46,351 nucleotides of DNA from positions 1 through 46,351 of the forward strand of contig CAIMSU010000194.1 of the NCBI GenBank assembly GCA_903844155.1, written 5' to 3'. The notes beneath the pieces are model-generated. The model was not told the DNA's origin. It saw nothing but the letters and a program-made list of their open reading frames with translations, and made no database searches. Made by a program: the position numbers and the translations under genes. The stretch is from an uncultured Pseudomonadota bacterium. GTDB taxonomy: Bacteria > Myxococcota_A > UBA796 > SXON01. Position 1 is the first letter of the stretch; the number at the start of each line of letters is the position of its first letter. Positions 22,282 through 30,039 of this stretch are shown here, in pieces.

Positions 22282-22324
22282 ACGATGCCGCCTGGGCCGC
22301 GCGCGGAGCGGTTAGCGGCATCGG

Positions 22325-23440
22325 ATGCAAACCCTCCCCGGCGCGAAGTGGTCCTGTCACGGTTGTGGTGCTTGCTGCCGGGATTTTCGGCTCGGACCGG
22401 TGGAGCCGGAGGTCGTCGCAGCCCTGAAGGCGCGAGGAGCAGACGCGCTCGTGGCGGAGCTCTCCGGACCAGCGGACTGGGTCGTGCCCGAGGCGGGTCC
22501 GGGCGGCGAAACCGGGCTTTTCCTGCGACACGTCGACGGGCACTGCGTCTTTCTCCTGCCGGACAACCGCTGCGCCGTGCACGCGCGCTGGGGCGGTGAG
22601 GCGAAACCCGGCTTCTGTCAGGAGTTTCCCTACCGTCGCCTGCGCGACCCGAACGGCGAGGTCCTCGTGATCCGCGCCGAATGCGGGGGCCTCCACGCCT
22701 CGCACGTCGACGGCGACCCGCTCGCAGCCCAGACCGCCCTCGCCAGCGCCCTCCCCACCCTCCGGCCGACCCCGGAATTTCGCCCCGAAGCCGTGGCCAT
22801 CCTTCCCGGCGTCGGCGCGTCGCTGGCGGATTGGATGGCGCTGGAACGCTCGTTGCTGGCGTGCTGGGAGGCCGTCGACGCCGATGCCGCGGAGCCCGAG
22901 GACACGGCGCGCGCGTTGGCGCGGGCGGCGGTTCAGGCCGTTGGACGTTCCCTTCCTCCAGGTCGCACCGCGCTTGCGGCGGACGCGGTCCGCGAAGCGA
23001 TGCGGATGGTGGCCAACGCGGCGATCGCGCAGGAGACGCCAGCGACCGAAGCGTGGCAGCGGACCCTGGTGCGGCAGACGAACCTGTTGTTTGACCGAAA
23101 GATCGCCCGGTCTGCCGAGGGATCGGACGGCGCCCGCCGGCTGAGCGAAGCGACGAAGCGGTACCTGCACACCCTGCTCGGGCAAGCAATCCTCGGCAAG
23201 CACCTCGTCGCCGCCGGCGGATTCGTGGCGATGCTGGGACGTTTTGTGTTTGAATGCGACCTCGTCCGCTCCTCGGCCGGATCAGGACAGGTGACACCGG
23301 CCGAGGCCAGCGCAGTCCTCGTCCCGTGGCTGCGATTCGCCGACAACCCCATGGTGCTCGGCATGCTCCGCCGGGCCACACCCGCGCTCCTGGAGCTGGC
23401 CGCCCCCCCAGCGCGCGACGTTCCCACGATCGCCCCTTGA
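22325..23440 (+). CDS. YkgJ-family cysteine-cluster protein
   Basis: A 371-residue protein with the N-terminal Cys cluster of the YkgJ/UPF0153 family (PF03692): CxxCxxCC at Cys11, Cys14, Cys17 and Cys18, then CVFLL...CAVH and a later GFCQEFPYR, together a likely zinc or iron-sulfur site. FliB flagellin lysine methylases have a similar Cys layout, but the rest does not let me assign that role. Residues 150-371 are helical with no recognised domain; two mildly hydrophobic helices occur near the end. The ATG 22325 start places the first cysteines exactly where the family has them. It stands 43 bases after sbcC on the same strand. Function unknown. Confidence 0.8.
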   Translation: MQTLPGAKWSCHGCGACCRDFRLGPVEPEVVAALKARGADALVAELSGPADWVVPEAGPGGETGLFLRHVDGHCVFLLPDNRCAVHARWGGEAKPGFCQEFPYRRLRDPNGEVLVIRAECGGLHASHVDGDPLAAQTALASALPTLRPTPEFRPEAVAILPGVGASLADWMALERSLLACWEAVDADAAEPEDTARALARAAVQAVGRSLPPGRTALAADAVREAMRMVANAAIAQETPATEAWQRTLVRQTNLLFDRKIARSAEGSDGARRLSEATKRYLHTLLGQAILGKHLVAAGGFVAMLGRFVFECDLVRSSAGSGQVTPAEASAVLVPWLRFADNPMVLGMLRRATPALLELAAPPARDVPTIAP

Positions 23441-26000: not shown

Positions 26001-26030
26001 GGCCTGCGGTCCGCGAACGGTGCCAAATCG

Positions 26031-26076
26031 GCGGCCGGCCCGGACCTTTCCGCGACGGCCCGGGGGCAGGCGCGCC
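26031..26076 (+). repeat. Intergenic repeat, copy A (lacks the two central hairpins)
   Basis: The left box GCGGCCGGCCCGGACCTTT (26031-26049) is identical to that of copy B. After a few bases the right-hand sequence GGCCCGGGGGCAGGCGCGCC (26057-26076) matches copy B with one change. The roughly 80 bases of paired structure between these boxes in B are absent. It looks like a deletion derivative or a minimal form, 62 bases from copy B in the same orientation. Confidence 0.7.
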
Positions 26077-26137
26077 CCGCGCCCTGCAGCGAGCGGCCGG
26101 AGCCGTGCACGCCGTTGCCCATGCAGGTGGGAAACGT

Positions 26138-26295
26138 GCGGCCGGCCCGGACCTTTGCTCCGCCGCCCGGCCGTACTCGGCCGCTTGCGGCGGAGCAAAG
26201 TCGCTGGATTCGCCCAAGCGAATCGAGTTAGGGCCCGGCCCGGGGGTAGGCGCGCCGCGCGCGCCGGAGGGGGCCGCCGGATAGGCGGCCCCCTC
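26138..26295 (+). repeat. Structured intergenic repeat, copy B (full length, four hairpins)
   Basis: Order: box GCGGCCGGCCCGGAC; stem 1 CTTTGCTCCGCCGC (26153-26166) paired with 26187-26200; inside it CGGCCG-TACT-CGGCCG (26168-26183); box TCGC; stem 2 GATTCGC (26207-26213) with GCGAATC (26218-26224), loop CCAA; box GTTAGGGCCCGGCCC (26227-26241); a small stem GGCGCGC/GCGCGCC (26249-26265); stem 3 GAGGGGGCCGCC (26267-26278) with 26284-26295, loop GGATA. All stems pair perfectly. Copy C, in inverted orientation 2.6 kb away, keeps boxes and folds with different stem sequences. Confidence 0.9.
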
Positions 26296-26384
26296 AGAAA
26301 GGACGGTAGCGCTTTCATCGGAACACGATCAACCGGCAACCGTCCCACCCGGTTTCTGATTAACCGCACGCCCCCGGAGTCCCG

Positions 26385-27251
26385 ATGATCACTGACCTGT
26401 TGAACTGGAAGCCGCTCCCCGTCGGGACGCCCGCCACACCGCTCTCCCTCACGGCGGACGAAGGCACGTGGATCAAGCTCGCAGACTTCAAGGGCCACCT
26501 CAACGTGGTCCTGATCTTCTTCCGGCGCATGGACGAGAACACCACCGAGACCTTCCTCCGGGCGATGCAAGCCGAGCAGGCGCGCTTTGAGGAGCTCGAG
26601 TGCGGCATCTTCGGCGTCCACACGGCGCGCACCGATCGCCTCCGCGAGTTCCGGGCCAAGATCGGGATTCAGTTCTTCCTGCTCTACGACCCCTTGGCCT
26701 TCGCCGCGCGCGGCTTTCGCGCCTCGGGACGGGTCCGCCCGATCTGCAAGGACAACGTCGTCCTGATCGGAAAGGACGGCAACGTGCTCTACGCGCAGAA
26801 GGGGTTTCCGGACGTCGAGGAGCTCCTCGCCGTCCTCGCCCGTGCCGAAGGCAAGCCCGTCCCCGCGCGCGCAGCCCCTGCTGCGGCCCATCACACCTCG
26901 TCGGCGACCCTGCGCGACCCGGGGCGCGGCCCCGCTGCCGTGCGCGATGTCGAGTCCGCCGAAGCGATCCGCCTCCTCCAGGAAAAGGACTCGCCGTACA
27001 TCCTCGTCGACGTGCGGACGAAGCCCGAGTGGGAGCGCGAGCACTCCCCCCTCGCCCGCCTCATCCCCGTTGACGAATTGCCCCATCGCTACGCCGAGCT
27101 CAAGCAGACGACCCACGTCATCTTCGTCTGCCAGGGCGGCGGTCGAAGTGCGGCCGCGGCCGAGTTCATGACCAGCATCGGCGCCTCGGACATCTGCAAC
27201 GTGCTCGGCGGGATGTCGGAATGGACCGGTCCGAAGGTCCCTGGCGCATGA
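26385..27251 (+). CDS. Redoxin-like domain fused to rhodanese
   Basis: A 288-residue protein. Residues 1-150 have the AhpC/TSA thioredoxin fold (GTPATPLSLTADEGTWIKLADF, NVVLIFFRRMDENTTETF, YDPLAFAARGF, VLIGKDGNVLYAQ), but the peroxidatic Cys position after the FF strand has none; the only cysteines in this half are in ELECGIF and RPICKD. Residues 185-288 are a rhodanese with active Cys249 in the loop CQGGGRS, adequate for sulfur transfer or persulfide handling. The first domain is therefore probably not a classical peroxidase. ATG 26385 has GGAG five bases upstream. Copies of a structured repeat lie on both sides of this gene and its two followers. Confidence 0.85.
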   Translation: MITDLLNWKPLPVGTPATPLSLTADEGTWIKLADFKGHLNVVLIFFRRMDENTTETFLRAMQAEQARFEELECGIFGVHTARTDRLREFRAKIGIQFFLLYDPLAFAARGFRASGRVRPICKDNVVLIGKDGNVLYAQKGFPDVEELLAVLARAEGKPVPARAAPAAAHHTSSATLRDPGRGPAAVRDVESAEAIRLLQEKDSPYILVDVRTKPEWEREHSPLARLIPVDELPHRYAELKQTTHVIFVCQGGGRSAAAAEFMTSIGASDICNVLGGMSEWTGPKVPGA

Positions 27252-27315
27252 TCGCGGTCAAACCTGTGGCGCGGGGTTGCCTACCCCCCCTCGACCCTGC
27301 TACCCTGCCCACCTC

Positions 27316-28275
27316 GTGACCAACAAGCCCGCCATCGTCGCCACGGCGTCGTGCCCGTTCTGCAAGGGCAAGGTCGCGGACGACGTCCTCCAGTTCGGCG
27401 GGAACTGCCCGCATTGTCTCCTGGAGATCCCGGGGGAGGAGGCGCCGACGGACCCCGGCCTGATCGCGCGGAAGAAGCTGGAGGCTGAAGCGCTCCTGAA
27501 GGCGCGCGCGCTGAAGAAGACGCGCGTGAAATGGGGGGTGCTCGTCGCGCTGGCGTCCTGCGTCGGCATCGGGATCCTCGCATGGAACGCCGAGCAGGAC
27601 AAAGAAGCCCGCACCTACGAACTTCCGGACGATCTGTACTTGCCGCCGCTCCAGGAGGCCGCCGCGCCCGGCGTCACCCCCGCCGCCACCCCGACGCCCG
27701 GCCAGGCGGTCCCGACGCCCAGGCACCCCGGCATGCCGGCGGTGAACCCCGCGAACCCGCTCGCCACCCTCGCCAACAGCGCACCCGCGCCCATCGGCGC
27801 GATGCCCGACATCGCCTCAAACACGCCCGCGCCCGTCGCCCCGCCAACGCTCTCCGGCCCCAAGCACTCGACCGCAGATGCCGCGACCGACGTGCAGGTG
27901 GCCATGTCCGGTTCGCCGAGCGCCAGCGAGGACATCGCGGATGTCCCGATTCCCGCCATGGGCAGCGCAGTGCTGACCTCCGACGACGAGATCCTCGGCA
28001 TGATCAAGGAGGTCACGTCGCGGTACACGCCGCAGGTGCGAGCCTGCTACGAGTCGCGGCTAAAACTCAACGAGAACCTGGCCGGCGCGTGGTCGCTCTC
28101 CTTCGTCGTGAAGAAGGATGGGTCGACGGCGAGCGTGGCGGTCACGCCGCAGGGCCGGAAGGACGCCGACCTGGAGTCCTGCATCGCCAAGACCGTCGGC
28201 GCCTGGAAGTTCTCGCGCATCGCGCGGGACCAGCCGGTCACCAAGACCGAACGCTTCGGGGCCGCCGGCTTCTGA
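27316..28275 (+). CDS. Zinc-ribbon, single-span protein with AgmX/PglI C-terminal domain
   Basis: A 319-residue protein. The N-terminus has two CxxC knuckles (CPFC, CPHC) forming a probable zinc ribbon. A membrane span follows at about residues 60-80 (WGVLVALASCVGIGILAW), then a Pro/Ala-rich periplasmic linker of about 130 residues. The last 90 residues match the AgmX/PglI C-terminal domain (TSRYTPQVRACYESRLKLNE, GSTASVAVTPQG, LESCIAKTVGAWKFS), related to TonB-type domains and named from Myxococcus gliding-motility proteins. I chose GTG 27316; TTG 27277 would add 13 Pro-rich residues and has no better SD. Probable role: link a cytoplasmic signal to envelope machinery (inference). Confidence 0.82.
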   Translation: MTNKPAIVATASCPFCKGKVADDVLQFGGNCPHCLLEIPGEEAPTDPGLIARKKLEAEALLKARALKKTRVKWGVLVALASCVGIGILAWNAEQDKEARTYELPDDLYLPPLQEAAAPGVTPAATPTPGQAVPTPRHPGMPAVNPANPLATLANSAPAPIGAMPDIASNTPAPVAPPTLSGPKHSTADAATDVQVAMSGSPSASEDIADVPIPAMGSAVLTSDDEILGMIKEVTSRYTPQVRACYESRLKLNENLAGAWSLSFVVKKDGSTASVAVTPQGRKDADLESCIAKTVGAWKFSRIARDQPVTKTERFGAAGF

Positions 28276-28326
28276 TCGCGCGGGAGTGGGCTATTCTCCC
28301 GCCCACAGAGCCCGGAGCGAGCAGCC

Positions 28327-28932
28327 ATGGCACGCAAGGAGAAGGTCGACCGCATCGTCGGAAACGACATGGACGAGGTGGAGCAGAAGATGTTCCTCCT
28401 CAAGATCGAGTACGAGAAGTACTTCTCGGGCATCGAACGCATCGAGCCGCTCCGGGAGCGTGAGGAGATCCGGCGGATCATGCGGGAACTGTCGCTGGAG
28501 CCGATGACGGCCGCGACGCAGCGGTTTCGCTACCAGTCGCTCAAAGCGCGGTTTCAAAGCCTGGAGCTGTACTGGACGCGCAACCTCATCCAGATCGAAC
28601 GCGGCACCCACCCGAAGATGAAGTTCCGGGCGGACGCCAACGCAAAGCTGGCGACGGTGCAGCCCGAGGCGCTCTCGGTCGAGCAGCAGGAGGTCCTGCG
28701 CCAGCGCGCCGAGAAGTCCGAGCGCGAGGAGCGTGCCTACAAGCTCGTGTTCGACAAGTACATGGAGGCCCGTGCCAAGTGCGGGCAGTCGACGGAGCTC
28801 TCGTTCGAGGCCGTCCGCGAGGCGCTCCACAAGCAGGTCCGCCTCATCAAGTCGACCTACCAGACCGAAAACGTGAAGTTCCGGATCATGATCGAGGAGG
28901 GGAAGGCGAAGGTGAAGGCGGTGCCGCAGTAA
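28327..28932 (+). CDS. Coiled-coil protein similar to the MXAN_5187 C-terminal region
   Basis: A 201-residue, highly charged, mostly helical cytoplasmic protein. The segment KIEYEKYFSGIERIEPLREREEIRR and the following RFRYQSLKARFQSLELYWTR are the kind of sequence found in the family that NCBI names after the C-terminal domain of MXAN_5187; I recall this from memory and cannot confirm it. No catalytic motif is visible. ATG 28327 has GGAG upstream. It lies 51 bases after the AgmX/PglI-domain gene on the same strand and is the last gene before a structured repeat in the opposite orientation. Function unknown; a scaffold seems likely. Confidence 0.72.
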   Translation: MARKEKVDRIVGNDMDEVEQKMFLLKIEYEKYFSGIERIEPLREREEIRRIMRELSLEPMTAATQRFRYQSLKARFQSLELYWTRNLIQIERGTHPKMKFRADANAKLATVQPEALSVEQQEVLRQRAEKSEREERAYKLVFDKYMEARAKCGQSTELSFEAVREALHKQVRLIKSTYQTENVKFRIMIEEGKAKVKAVPQ

Positions 28933-28935
28933 TTA

Positions 28936-28962
28936 CTGGGGGGCGCCACGGGCGCCCCCCAG
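28936..28962. terminator. Strong hairpin directly after the MXAN_5187-like gene
   Basis: CTGGGGGGCGCC (28936-28947) pairs with GGCGCCCCCCAG (28951-28962) with a 3-base loop, starting 4 bases after the stop codon. There is no T-run. It is also stem 3 of repeat copy C, so the element may have been adopted as a transcription end or mRNA stabiliser. Confidence 0.55.
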
Positions 28963-29073
28963 ACCCCCAGGGCCGGGCCCTAACGGCGTTCGCCGAAGCG
29001 AACGCCGCGACTTTGCGCGGACGCGAGCGCGCGAGTACGCGCGGGCGTCCGCGCAAAGGTCCGGGCCGGCCGC
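28936..29073 (-). repeat. Structured intergenic repeat, copy C (full length, inverted relative to B)
   Basis: Read on the - strand it has the copy B order: box GCGGCCGGCCCGGACC (ends 29073); stem 1 CTTTGCGCGGACGC (29011-29024 with 29045-29058), nested CGCGCG-TACT-CGCGCG (29028-29043); box TCG; stem 2 CGGCGTTCGC/GCGAACGCCG (28984-29007); box GTTAGGGCCCGGCCC (28970-28984, identical to B); stem 3 (28936-28962). Compared with B, eight of fourteen stem-1 pairs, the nested stem and parts of stems 2 and 3 are rewritten while pairing stays perfect. Confidence 0.9.
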
Positions 29074-29088: not shown

Positions 29089-30039
29089 TCAGCACGCGTC
29101 GAGGTAGAACCAGGTGGAGGTGCTGTAGATGCCTCCCCACCACTCGGTGAGCTGGGTCAGCGGGTTCCCAGCGGCGTCGTAGGTGGTGACGTAGTTCAAT
29201 TCGTTCCCGTCCGCATCGAAGTCCTCCTCGGTCACGGTCATCCCGTCGGCCGAATGCACGTAGGTCCACGTGTCCCAGTATTCGGTGGTGCCATCCGCGG
29301 CGGTCTGCACCCAGAGGTAGCGCGTGCCAGCACCGTCGTAGGTGGACGTCTGCACAAACTTGAGGTCGAGGGCGTTGCCCGTGTACTCGGTCAGCGTCAA
29401 CAACCGGTTGTCGGCGTCGTACACGGAGACGTCGGTGTGGTCGAGCGTGTCCACATCGGAGTAGTACGAGAAGCTGAGGACGTTCCCGGCGTGGTCGTAG
29501 GTGTACTTGAAGTACGTCCAGCCGTCGCGGACGTAGTCGACCTCGCTGAGATACCCGTCCGCGTAGAGGAAGTACTCCACCGGGGGAGACGTGCCGCCCG
29601 CCACGGTGTCCATCTCAGCGACCGTGCCGTCCGTATTGTAGAGGTACACCCAGCTTTCCCCGGTGTAGGCGTCGACGAAGCTGAGCAGTTTGCCGTCGGC
29701 GTCGTAGGTGTACAGGTAGTTTGTTCGGTACTCAGAGCCCAAGTCCTGCCAGCGCAGCAGCCGGTTCTCAGCGTCGTAGCTGTAGAGCTCGTCATCGCCG
29801 GAGCCGTCCTCGGTCTCCTCGGAAAGGTCGTAGTCATCCCACACGAGGCTACACCCCGGCGCCCAGTCCGGCGGCGTCGCCTCGCCAGCCTCCTCCGCCG
29901 CCGCCGCCGCCGAGTCCAGCACCGAATCGCCGCCGCTGTCTGCGACCAGCGCAGAACTATCCCCATCCACCGCCGACTCCGTCGACGCTGCAGGCTTACC
30001 CGCCACGCACCCGACGACGACGGCAGACCACAGCAACAT
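29089..30039 (-). CDS. Lipoprotein with YD/RHS-like repeats
   Basis: A 316-residue protein. A short hydrophobic N-terminus with VVVGC and Cys11 looks like a lipobox, although it lacks positive charges. An Asp/Ser/Ala-rich linker follows. From about residue 80 it is made of repeats of the YD/RHS type: LYSYDAENRLLRWQ, LYTYDADGKLLSF, KYTYDHAGNVLSFSY, VSVYDADNRLLTL, TTYDAAGNPLTQ. In RHS proteins such repeats form a beta-shell, but here there is no toxin tip or core box, only about ten repeats. ATG 30039 lies 8 bases after the flippase-like gene stop; a longer frame upstream is a shadow of that gene. It is the last gene of the 8-gene block. Confidence 0.85.
   Translation of the reverse strand: MLLWSAVVVGCVAGKPAASTESAVDGDSSALVADSGGDSVLDSAAAAAEEAGEATPPDWAPGCSLVWDDYDLSEETEDGSGDDELYSYDAENRLLRWQDLGSEYRTNYLYTYDADGKLLSFVDAYTGESWVYLYNTDGTVAEMDTVAGGTSPPVEYFLYADGYLSEVDYVRDGWTYFKYTYDHAGNVLSFSYYSDVDTLDHTDVSVYDADNRLLTLTEYTGNALDLKFVQTSTYDGAGTRYLWVQTAADGTTEYWDTWTYVHSADGMTVTEEDFDADGNELNYVTTYDAAGNPLTQLTEWWGGIYSTSTWFYLDAC

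Follow-up and report, generated by a model that had tools for sequence, protein, structure and literature searches.

What kind of sequence lies twice, in opposite orientations, between the genes of one contig, preserves its fold while its bases change, and in one of the two cases runs up to a promoter-like box? The question arises from a stretch of 46,351 nucleotides (contig CAIMSU010000194.1 of GenBank assembly GCA_903844155.1, from an uncultured bacterium), analyzed at its full length and called the window below, in which an earlier note made from the sequence alone had described two copies, here copies B and C, of a multi-hairpin intergenic element. Our answer, to which we give a probability of roughly 0.6, is that both belong to a family of short, non-coding, non-autonomous elements that resemble repetitive extragenic palindromic (REP) sequences and miniature inverted-repeat transposable elements (MITEs), have spread within one species, and insert against the -10 boxes of promoters. 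This answer draws on the dispersal of the family, its restriction to one lineage, its fold and covariation, its position at -10-like boxes, its absence at orthologous loci in congeners, and a parallel family in one of them.

A dispersed family in a single genome

The assembly is a fragmented 8.1-Mb draft of 375 contigs with an estimated contamination of 4.98%. Roughly half of the copies are found at the ends of contigs, where some may have been counted twice, and all counts are therefore approximate. The 15-mer GGCCCGGACCTTTGC occurs 37 times in this genome, where its reversed control occurs 0 times, and was not found in the 37 relatives searched. As the earlier note had proposed, a covariance model of the core was run over the genome and its relatives, and the copy counts rest on such searches. 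The model, R1, describes the 42-pair core and was written from 24 aligned cores; at E <= 0.001 it recovers 42 copies from this genome, a number that rises to 44 at E <= 0.01. The 57 relatives, four congeners among them, yield none, and a class-level search of 71 genomes gives matches in this genome only. All but one of these 44 copies, which we call type I, are intergenic, and tandem, chimeric, degenerate and truncated copies occur.

No Rfam 15 family matches the element at gathering or relaxed thresholds, and BLAST against plasmids and phages gave no match. Exact-motif scans returned 3 matches in genomes of other species and 2 in viral contigs, all attributable to chance by inspection and by the model; the plasmid, phage, viral and other-species collections may omit this genome's own records. 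With 44 copies, no Rfam match and nothing similar found outside this genome, the suspicion of a novel family is borne out, and the family is best read as lineage-specific and dispersed within one species.

A three-way junction maintained by paired changes

The boxes of copies B and C, their order and spacing, and the paired changes in their stems were found as the earlier note had placed them, and the box GGCCGGCCCGGACCTTT occurs 3 times in the window against 0.50 expected. The hairpins of the original description also stand, but their layout in a row does not: the outer boxes GGCCGGCCC..GGACC and GTTAGGGCCCGGCC pair mutually, with one bulge and one mismatch, and the core is therefore one closed three-way junction. 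In this 42-pair structure two GC-rich boxes form the outer stem, within which stem 1, itself enclosing a nested hairpin with a TACT loop, is joined by a TCGC linker to stem 2. The features of the two cores are:

26131-26251, + strand: core of copy B (type I), three-way junction; R1 match of 125.7 bits
26131-26135, + strand: left terminus GAAAC of copy B, whose reverse complement GTTTC closes the tail at 26352-26356
26140-26152/26227-26240, + strand: outer stem of copy B, from pair counts in the core alignment
26153-26166/26187-26200, + strand: stem 1 of copy B, with nested hairpin 26168-26173/26178-26183 and loop TACT at 26174-26177
26205-26226, + strand: stem 2 of copy B, GATTCGC/GCGAATC, loop CCAA
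28960-29080, - strand: core of copy C (type I), the same three-way junction with loop TACT; R1 match of 113.4 bits

Folded against shuffled sequences, the cores score z = -6.2 (copy B) and z = -7.0 (copy C). Across the 24 aligned cores, 97.7% of cells pair and 14 pairs carry two-sided changes, with shuffles and slides far below. Widening the alignment to 38 distinct copies gives pairing in 96.6% of pair cells and two-sided changes at 20 pairs, a result reached by 0 of 500 shuffles, a control that carries the relatedness among copies. Sliding the partners leaves 27-48% paired against the observed 96.6%, in a control biased in favor of the structure, which was drawn from the same copies, and the covariation score, 0.216 against 0.066, lies far outside both controls. 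The claim of selection on the fold, which two copies could not show, thus holds on 38 distinct aligned copies, and the description of the element as mobile or selected is supported by the 44 copies and by strong covariation under both controls.

The core also keeps its irregularities across copies, namely a 1x3 internal loop, a G-U/G-C pair and the outer-stem mismatch, and the loop GGTACTCC is common in both of its hairpins. Variants of stem 1 and stem 2 occur in mixed combinations, and hairpins have therefore been exchanged between copies.

A right module shared by several core types

A complete copy is a unit of ~230 nt in which the core (~110 nt) is followed by GGGGGTAG, hairpin 3, GGAG, hairpin 4, CTCAGAA, a near-constant tail of ~65 nt, and the box TTTCnTGATAG. 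A second model, R2, describes this right module and recovers about 65 strong copies genome-wide; because it was built from copies partly chosen by their -10-like box, the box consensus is partly a product of that choice, while gene positions were not used. Many of the R2 copies are joined to other structured left parts, of type II (CCACCGGGCGGCGC...GCGCCGCTCGGTGG), type III (two hairpins in a junction that GTCGAC closes) and type IV. GTAG before hairpin 3 and GGAG before hairpin 4 recur in most right-module copies and in the congener G004. In copy B, the module reads:

26238-26363, + strand: right module; R2 match of 132.0 bits
26246-26249, + strand: GTAG tag, REP-like, before hairpin 3
26249-26265, + strand: hairpin 3, GGCGCGC/GCGCGCC, behind GTAG, overlooked in the earlier note
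26266-26295, + strand: GGAG tag and hairpin 4 (12 bp, 26267-26278/26284-26295), previously called stem 3 of copy B
26296-26356, + strand: conserved tail CAGAA..GGTAGCGC..GAAC..GATC..GGTTTC, of near-constant length to the -10-like box across copies
26357-26363, + strand: -10-like box TGATTAA of the redoxin/rhodanese gene, at the end of the tail; congeners have GGATAA/GGATAC at a similar distance to ATG
26385-27251, + strand: AhpC/TSA and rhodanese gene downstream of copy B, with orthologues 83-88% identical in all four congeners

Copy C is of a core-only type in which both the GTAG hairpin and the tail are missing, so the downstream parts of copies B and C are of different types. Copy L076 ends on the same kind of hairpin as copy C. 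Around the two copies lie:

28936-28962, - strand: hairpin of 12 bp that follows copy C (CTGGGGGGCGCC/GGCGCCCCCCAG) and abuts the 3' end of convergent gene 28327-28932
29089-30039, - strand: RHS/YD-repeat lipoprotein gene ending beside copy C, missing from the gene order there in the congener G001
~26020-26130, + strand: copy A, a degenerate tandem copy upstream of copy B, with the left box GCGGCCGGCCCGGACCTTT kept at 26032-26049

Copy A gives a weak R1 match at 26024-26071 (16 bits, E 0.22). Given its absence from the G001 gene order, the lipoprotein gene may have arrived together with copy C.

As side observations on module structure, type II cores (CCACCGGGCGGCGC...GAAAC...GCGCCGCTCGGTGGCYGGGAATTCAT; loci L165, L167, L168, L169, L178, L179, L183, L093 and L054) carry the same right module and stand in tandem with other copies, directly behind their -10-like box. 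A third module, GTCGGGCGTCYTCGCCCGACGCGSAGTC...GGCGCCGCTGGCGCC, occurs in this genome (L166, L186, L187, L055) and in G004 (L226, L235), with far higher sequence conservation.

Complete copies abut -10-like boxes

Genes were called with codon statistics trained on the window. The nearest downstream gene is co-directional and within 130 nt for 42 of the 56 right modules, opposite for 5, and further away or missing for 9. The upstream genes are oriented at random (17 co-directional, 18 opposite). In 18 of the 42 co-directional cases the box lies 8-10 nt from the start codon; transcripts would therefore be nearly leaderless, with the element outside the mRNA. The right module of L184 faces an apparent tRNA gene, read by eye. 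A native example of a nearly leaderless promoter may be the window gene at 22325, which has GGTTAG nine bases before its ATG (22310-22325) and no element.

Two candidate roles fall away on this geometry. A leader RNA of the downstream gene is ruled out by the -10-like box between the element and the start codon, often 8-10 nt from the latter, and termination of the upstream gene as a general role is ruled out by the random upstream orientation. Because that box intervenes and half of the complete copies have a divergent gene on the other side, complete copies are not 5' leaders, and the earlier suggestion of a structured RNA is not favored. We found nothing similar in the literature on promoter-abutting structured repeat families.

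Congeners lack the element at the corresponding sites. In G001, the two genes that flank copy B here are again neighbors, and the short gap between them contains GGATAA but no element; in G002, G003 and G004, too, the gene downstream of copy B is preceded by a GGATA box without the element. At seven further loci, compared with one chimeric query, the element is missing from the 140 nt before the start in congeners, so that it is present at none of the eight promoter loci compared. In the congeners most of these loci still have a -10-like box about as far from the start as here (copy B, L092, L088, L086+, L087, L081); for an acyl-CoA synthetase gene, the box is TTGATAG in G004 and GAGTTAG here. 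The proteins compared are ~55-91% identical, a divergence at which intergenic regions do not align base by base.

G004 has a family of its own. R2 gives weak matches there, and 11 places match CAGCCSGCTCGCGGGGGTAG with <=2 mismatches, the majority belonging to a related element; this pattern was found in none of the other four genomes of the genus. The core sequence of the G004 element is unlike that in this genome. Of three folds, two are three-way junctions and the third a related multi-branch structure, the order GGGGGTAG-hairpin-GGAGGGGG-hairpin is the same, and a compensated C/G swap distinguishes the outer stems of different copies. Several copies run directly into a -10-like box and start codon. 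Separately, the reversed control pattern occurs 13 times per strand in the relative G017, a sign that a further family of palindromic repeats may exist in that genome.

The fold appears to have been selected during spread

If the fold were kept in place at every copy, changes private to a single copy should be compensated. Of the changed pair states common to >=3 copies, 13 of 15 are paired, 12 of them via double changes, and the 2 broken states are adjacent and form a tandem G-A/A-G mismatch within one subfamily. Private states, by contrast, are mostly broken (35 of 52, with 17 paired). Among the 11 private states that are compensated, 7 come from a single divergent copy, L076. The difference in compensation gives a Fisher p = 0.0003 with states treated as independent. 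The earlier note had named stems mutating without compensation as grounds for giving up its proposal: this describes most of the private changes, and the shared ones are nearly all compensated. From the aligned sequences, the pattern suggests selection on the fold within the lineage that spread, not at each site, and decay of the copies after insertion.

These observations bear directly on the possibility that the element is a cis-regulatory or insulating sequence retained site by site, blocking upstream transcription as structured DNA or read-through RNA, or aiding the downstream promoter. The strict placement at -10 boxes, the nearly constant tail length to the box, the co-directional downstream genes, and the presence of a tRNA gene and a glmU-like gene among them would all suit such a role. 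Private changes that mostly break pairs do not, and with half of the upstream genes divergent there is often nothing to insulate from. Since the downstream genes have no evident common function and the congener orthologues manage without the element, we consider regulation at each site unlikely.

Comparison with known repeat systems

The nearest known kinds are REP elements with their assemblies, bacterial interspersed mosaic elements (BIMEs) and REPINs (PMC3116915), and MITEs. A REP is a palindrome of 20-50 nt behind a tetranucleotide, most often GTAG (PMC8266576, PMC3733652), and GTAG before a hairpin is its signature (PMC8266576, PMC3733652, PMC2817692). Like REP, BIME and REPIN elements and their RAYT (TnpA_REP) transposases, the present family is intergenic, high-copy, species-specific and palindromic, with GTAG 5' of a perfect hairpin. 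It differs in the ~110-nt three-way-junction core that precedes this hairpin, in its ~230-nt units, in its place upstream of promoters and not downstream of genes, and in that no linked RAYT was found. The statement that REPs are much simpler is right for the core, but the second module, the only part to contain a GTAG-type tagged palindrome, has GTAG- and GGAG-tagged hairpins that are REP-like.

The likeness raises the question of whether the GTAG hairpin is a true REP, mobilized by a RAYT transposase of this genome, with the core as accessory cargo. Perfect hairpins with GTAG or GGAG immediately 5', an arrangement conserved across two species, together with many intergenic copies and two Y1-domain genes in the genome, are what such a system would leave. 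Yet the Y1 genes are not flanked by the element, and core-only and tandem copies occur without the GTAG module. Position argues the same way: REPs are located mainly downstream of coding regions (PMC3733652), whereas 42 of the 56 right modules here point toward the start of a co-directional gene. On balance, a true REP is improbable here.

Bacterial MITEs (RUP, NEMIS, ERIC, Nezha, EFAR) share with the element a length of 70-300 bp, non-coding sequence, gene adjacency, foldability and short inverted termini (GAAAC/GTTTC), and the dispersed copies are, as expected of MITEs, absent at the orthologous loci of relatives. Unlike them, the element has a multi-branched covarying fold and neither a visible target duplication nor clear terminal inverted repeats of 15-30 bp, only the short GAAAC(C)/(G)GTTTC match. 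A longer inverted-terminus match exists in L188 (CTATCATGAAAC); near the right module of that copy, the right-end GTTTCATGATAG recurs within CTATCATGAAACTGGCGGCC as an exact reverse complement, which hints at longer inverted termini in some copies.

Insertion sequences with an outward -35 form hybrid promoters with a native -10. The element likewise has its right end beside a native -10 box, and this end may contribute the upstream half of the promoter, but no canonical -35 is recognized in the tail, no transposase is present, and very many copies stand in the same phase. Integron attC sites are single-strand recombination sites that act folded, with conserved structure and variable stem sequence, and the GTTAGGG box of the element resembles their GTTRRRY. 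The element, however, is a three-way junction, not one imperfect hairpin, and its copies are scattered, with no cassette arrays. An attC site is ruled out by this fold and by the missing RYYYAAC partner, the 5' partner being GGCCCGGACC.

Discussion

We thus favor REP/MITE-like elements that insert at promoters. Copies would be mobilized as single-stranded DNA in its folded form, on which an enzyme supplied in trans acts. The -10 boxes would be preferred sites of insertion or retention, perhaps as the edge of the open promoter bubble, where single-stranded DNA is exposed, and the tail would stand in for the upstream promoter half that is displaced, which would make the insertion tolerable. Selection would maintain the fold among the copies that spread, and copies would decay once inserted.

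Several points weigh against this account. No transposase was found inside or beside any copy examined; the two Y1/RAYT-like genes of the genome score weakly (30.3 and 22.6 bits, cut-off 23), and neither has a copy of the element beside it. No target-site duplication was seen by eye. The -10 boxes are called from sequence alone, and copy C, L076, L089 and some G004 copies face no start codon. The empty sites come from congeneric species, which are too divergent for the comparison to give more than absence: the exact junction is not shown, and the orthology of the -10-like boxes is not provable base by base. As a separate observation, the Y1-transposase gene on L037 is flanked by repeats of its own, TATCAAAAGCGACGACGTCA..TTTTGATA (~1400-1500, 2300-2350), which are unrelated to the element.

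A more specific and rather doubtful proposal is that the family represents a new kind of mobile element in bacteria, in which three-way-junction DNA inserts where the transcription bubble of active promoters has its upstream edge, becomes the upstream promoter half, and diversifies by exchange of whole hairpins. If so, such exchange would leave sister species with a similar fold and unrelated core sequences.

The paired changes could also be mutational in origin. Template switching between the arms of a quasi-palindrome corrects one arm to the other and yields double changes without selection; near-perfect long stems favor it, and a few private compensated changes are present. It would not leave most private one-sided changes (33 states) uncorrected, nor the 1x3 internal loop, the G-U/G-C pair and the outer-stem mismatch, and G004 has a similar topology in another sequence, all of which makes unselected compensation very unlikely. 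The reading as a family of non-coding RNA genes, each under a promoter of its own, which the covarying three-way junction and the common loop GGTACTCC might suggest, is weaker still, with no common promoter-like sequence seen upstream of the cores, no Rfam match, and many degenerate, tandem and truncated copies.

Insertion abutting promoters would be an unusual property of this miniature mobile repeat. Short palindromic repeats abound in bacteria, yet why they fold and how their sites are chosen are unsettled questions, and this family bears on both: a single genome separates spreading, recorded in compensated shared changes, from decay after insertion, recorded in broken private ones, and the tie between insertion sites and -10 boxes makes promoter-targeted insertion directly testable. 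If confirmed, one family of elements would have rebuilt dozens of promoters in one species.

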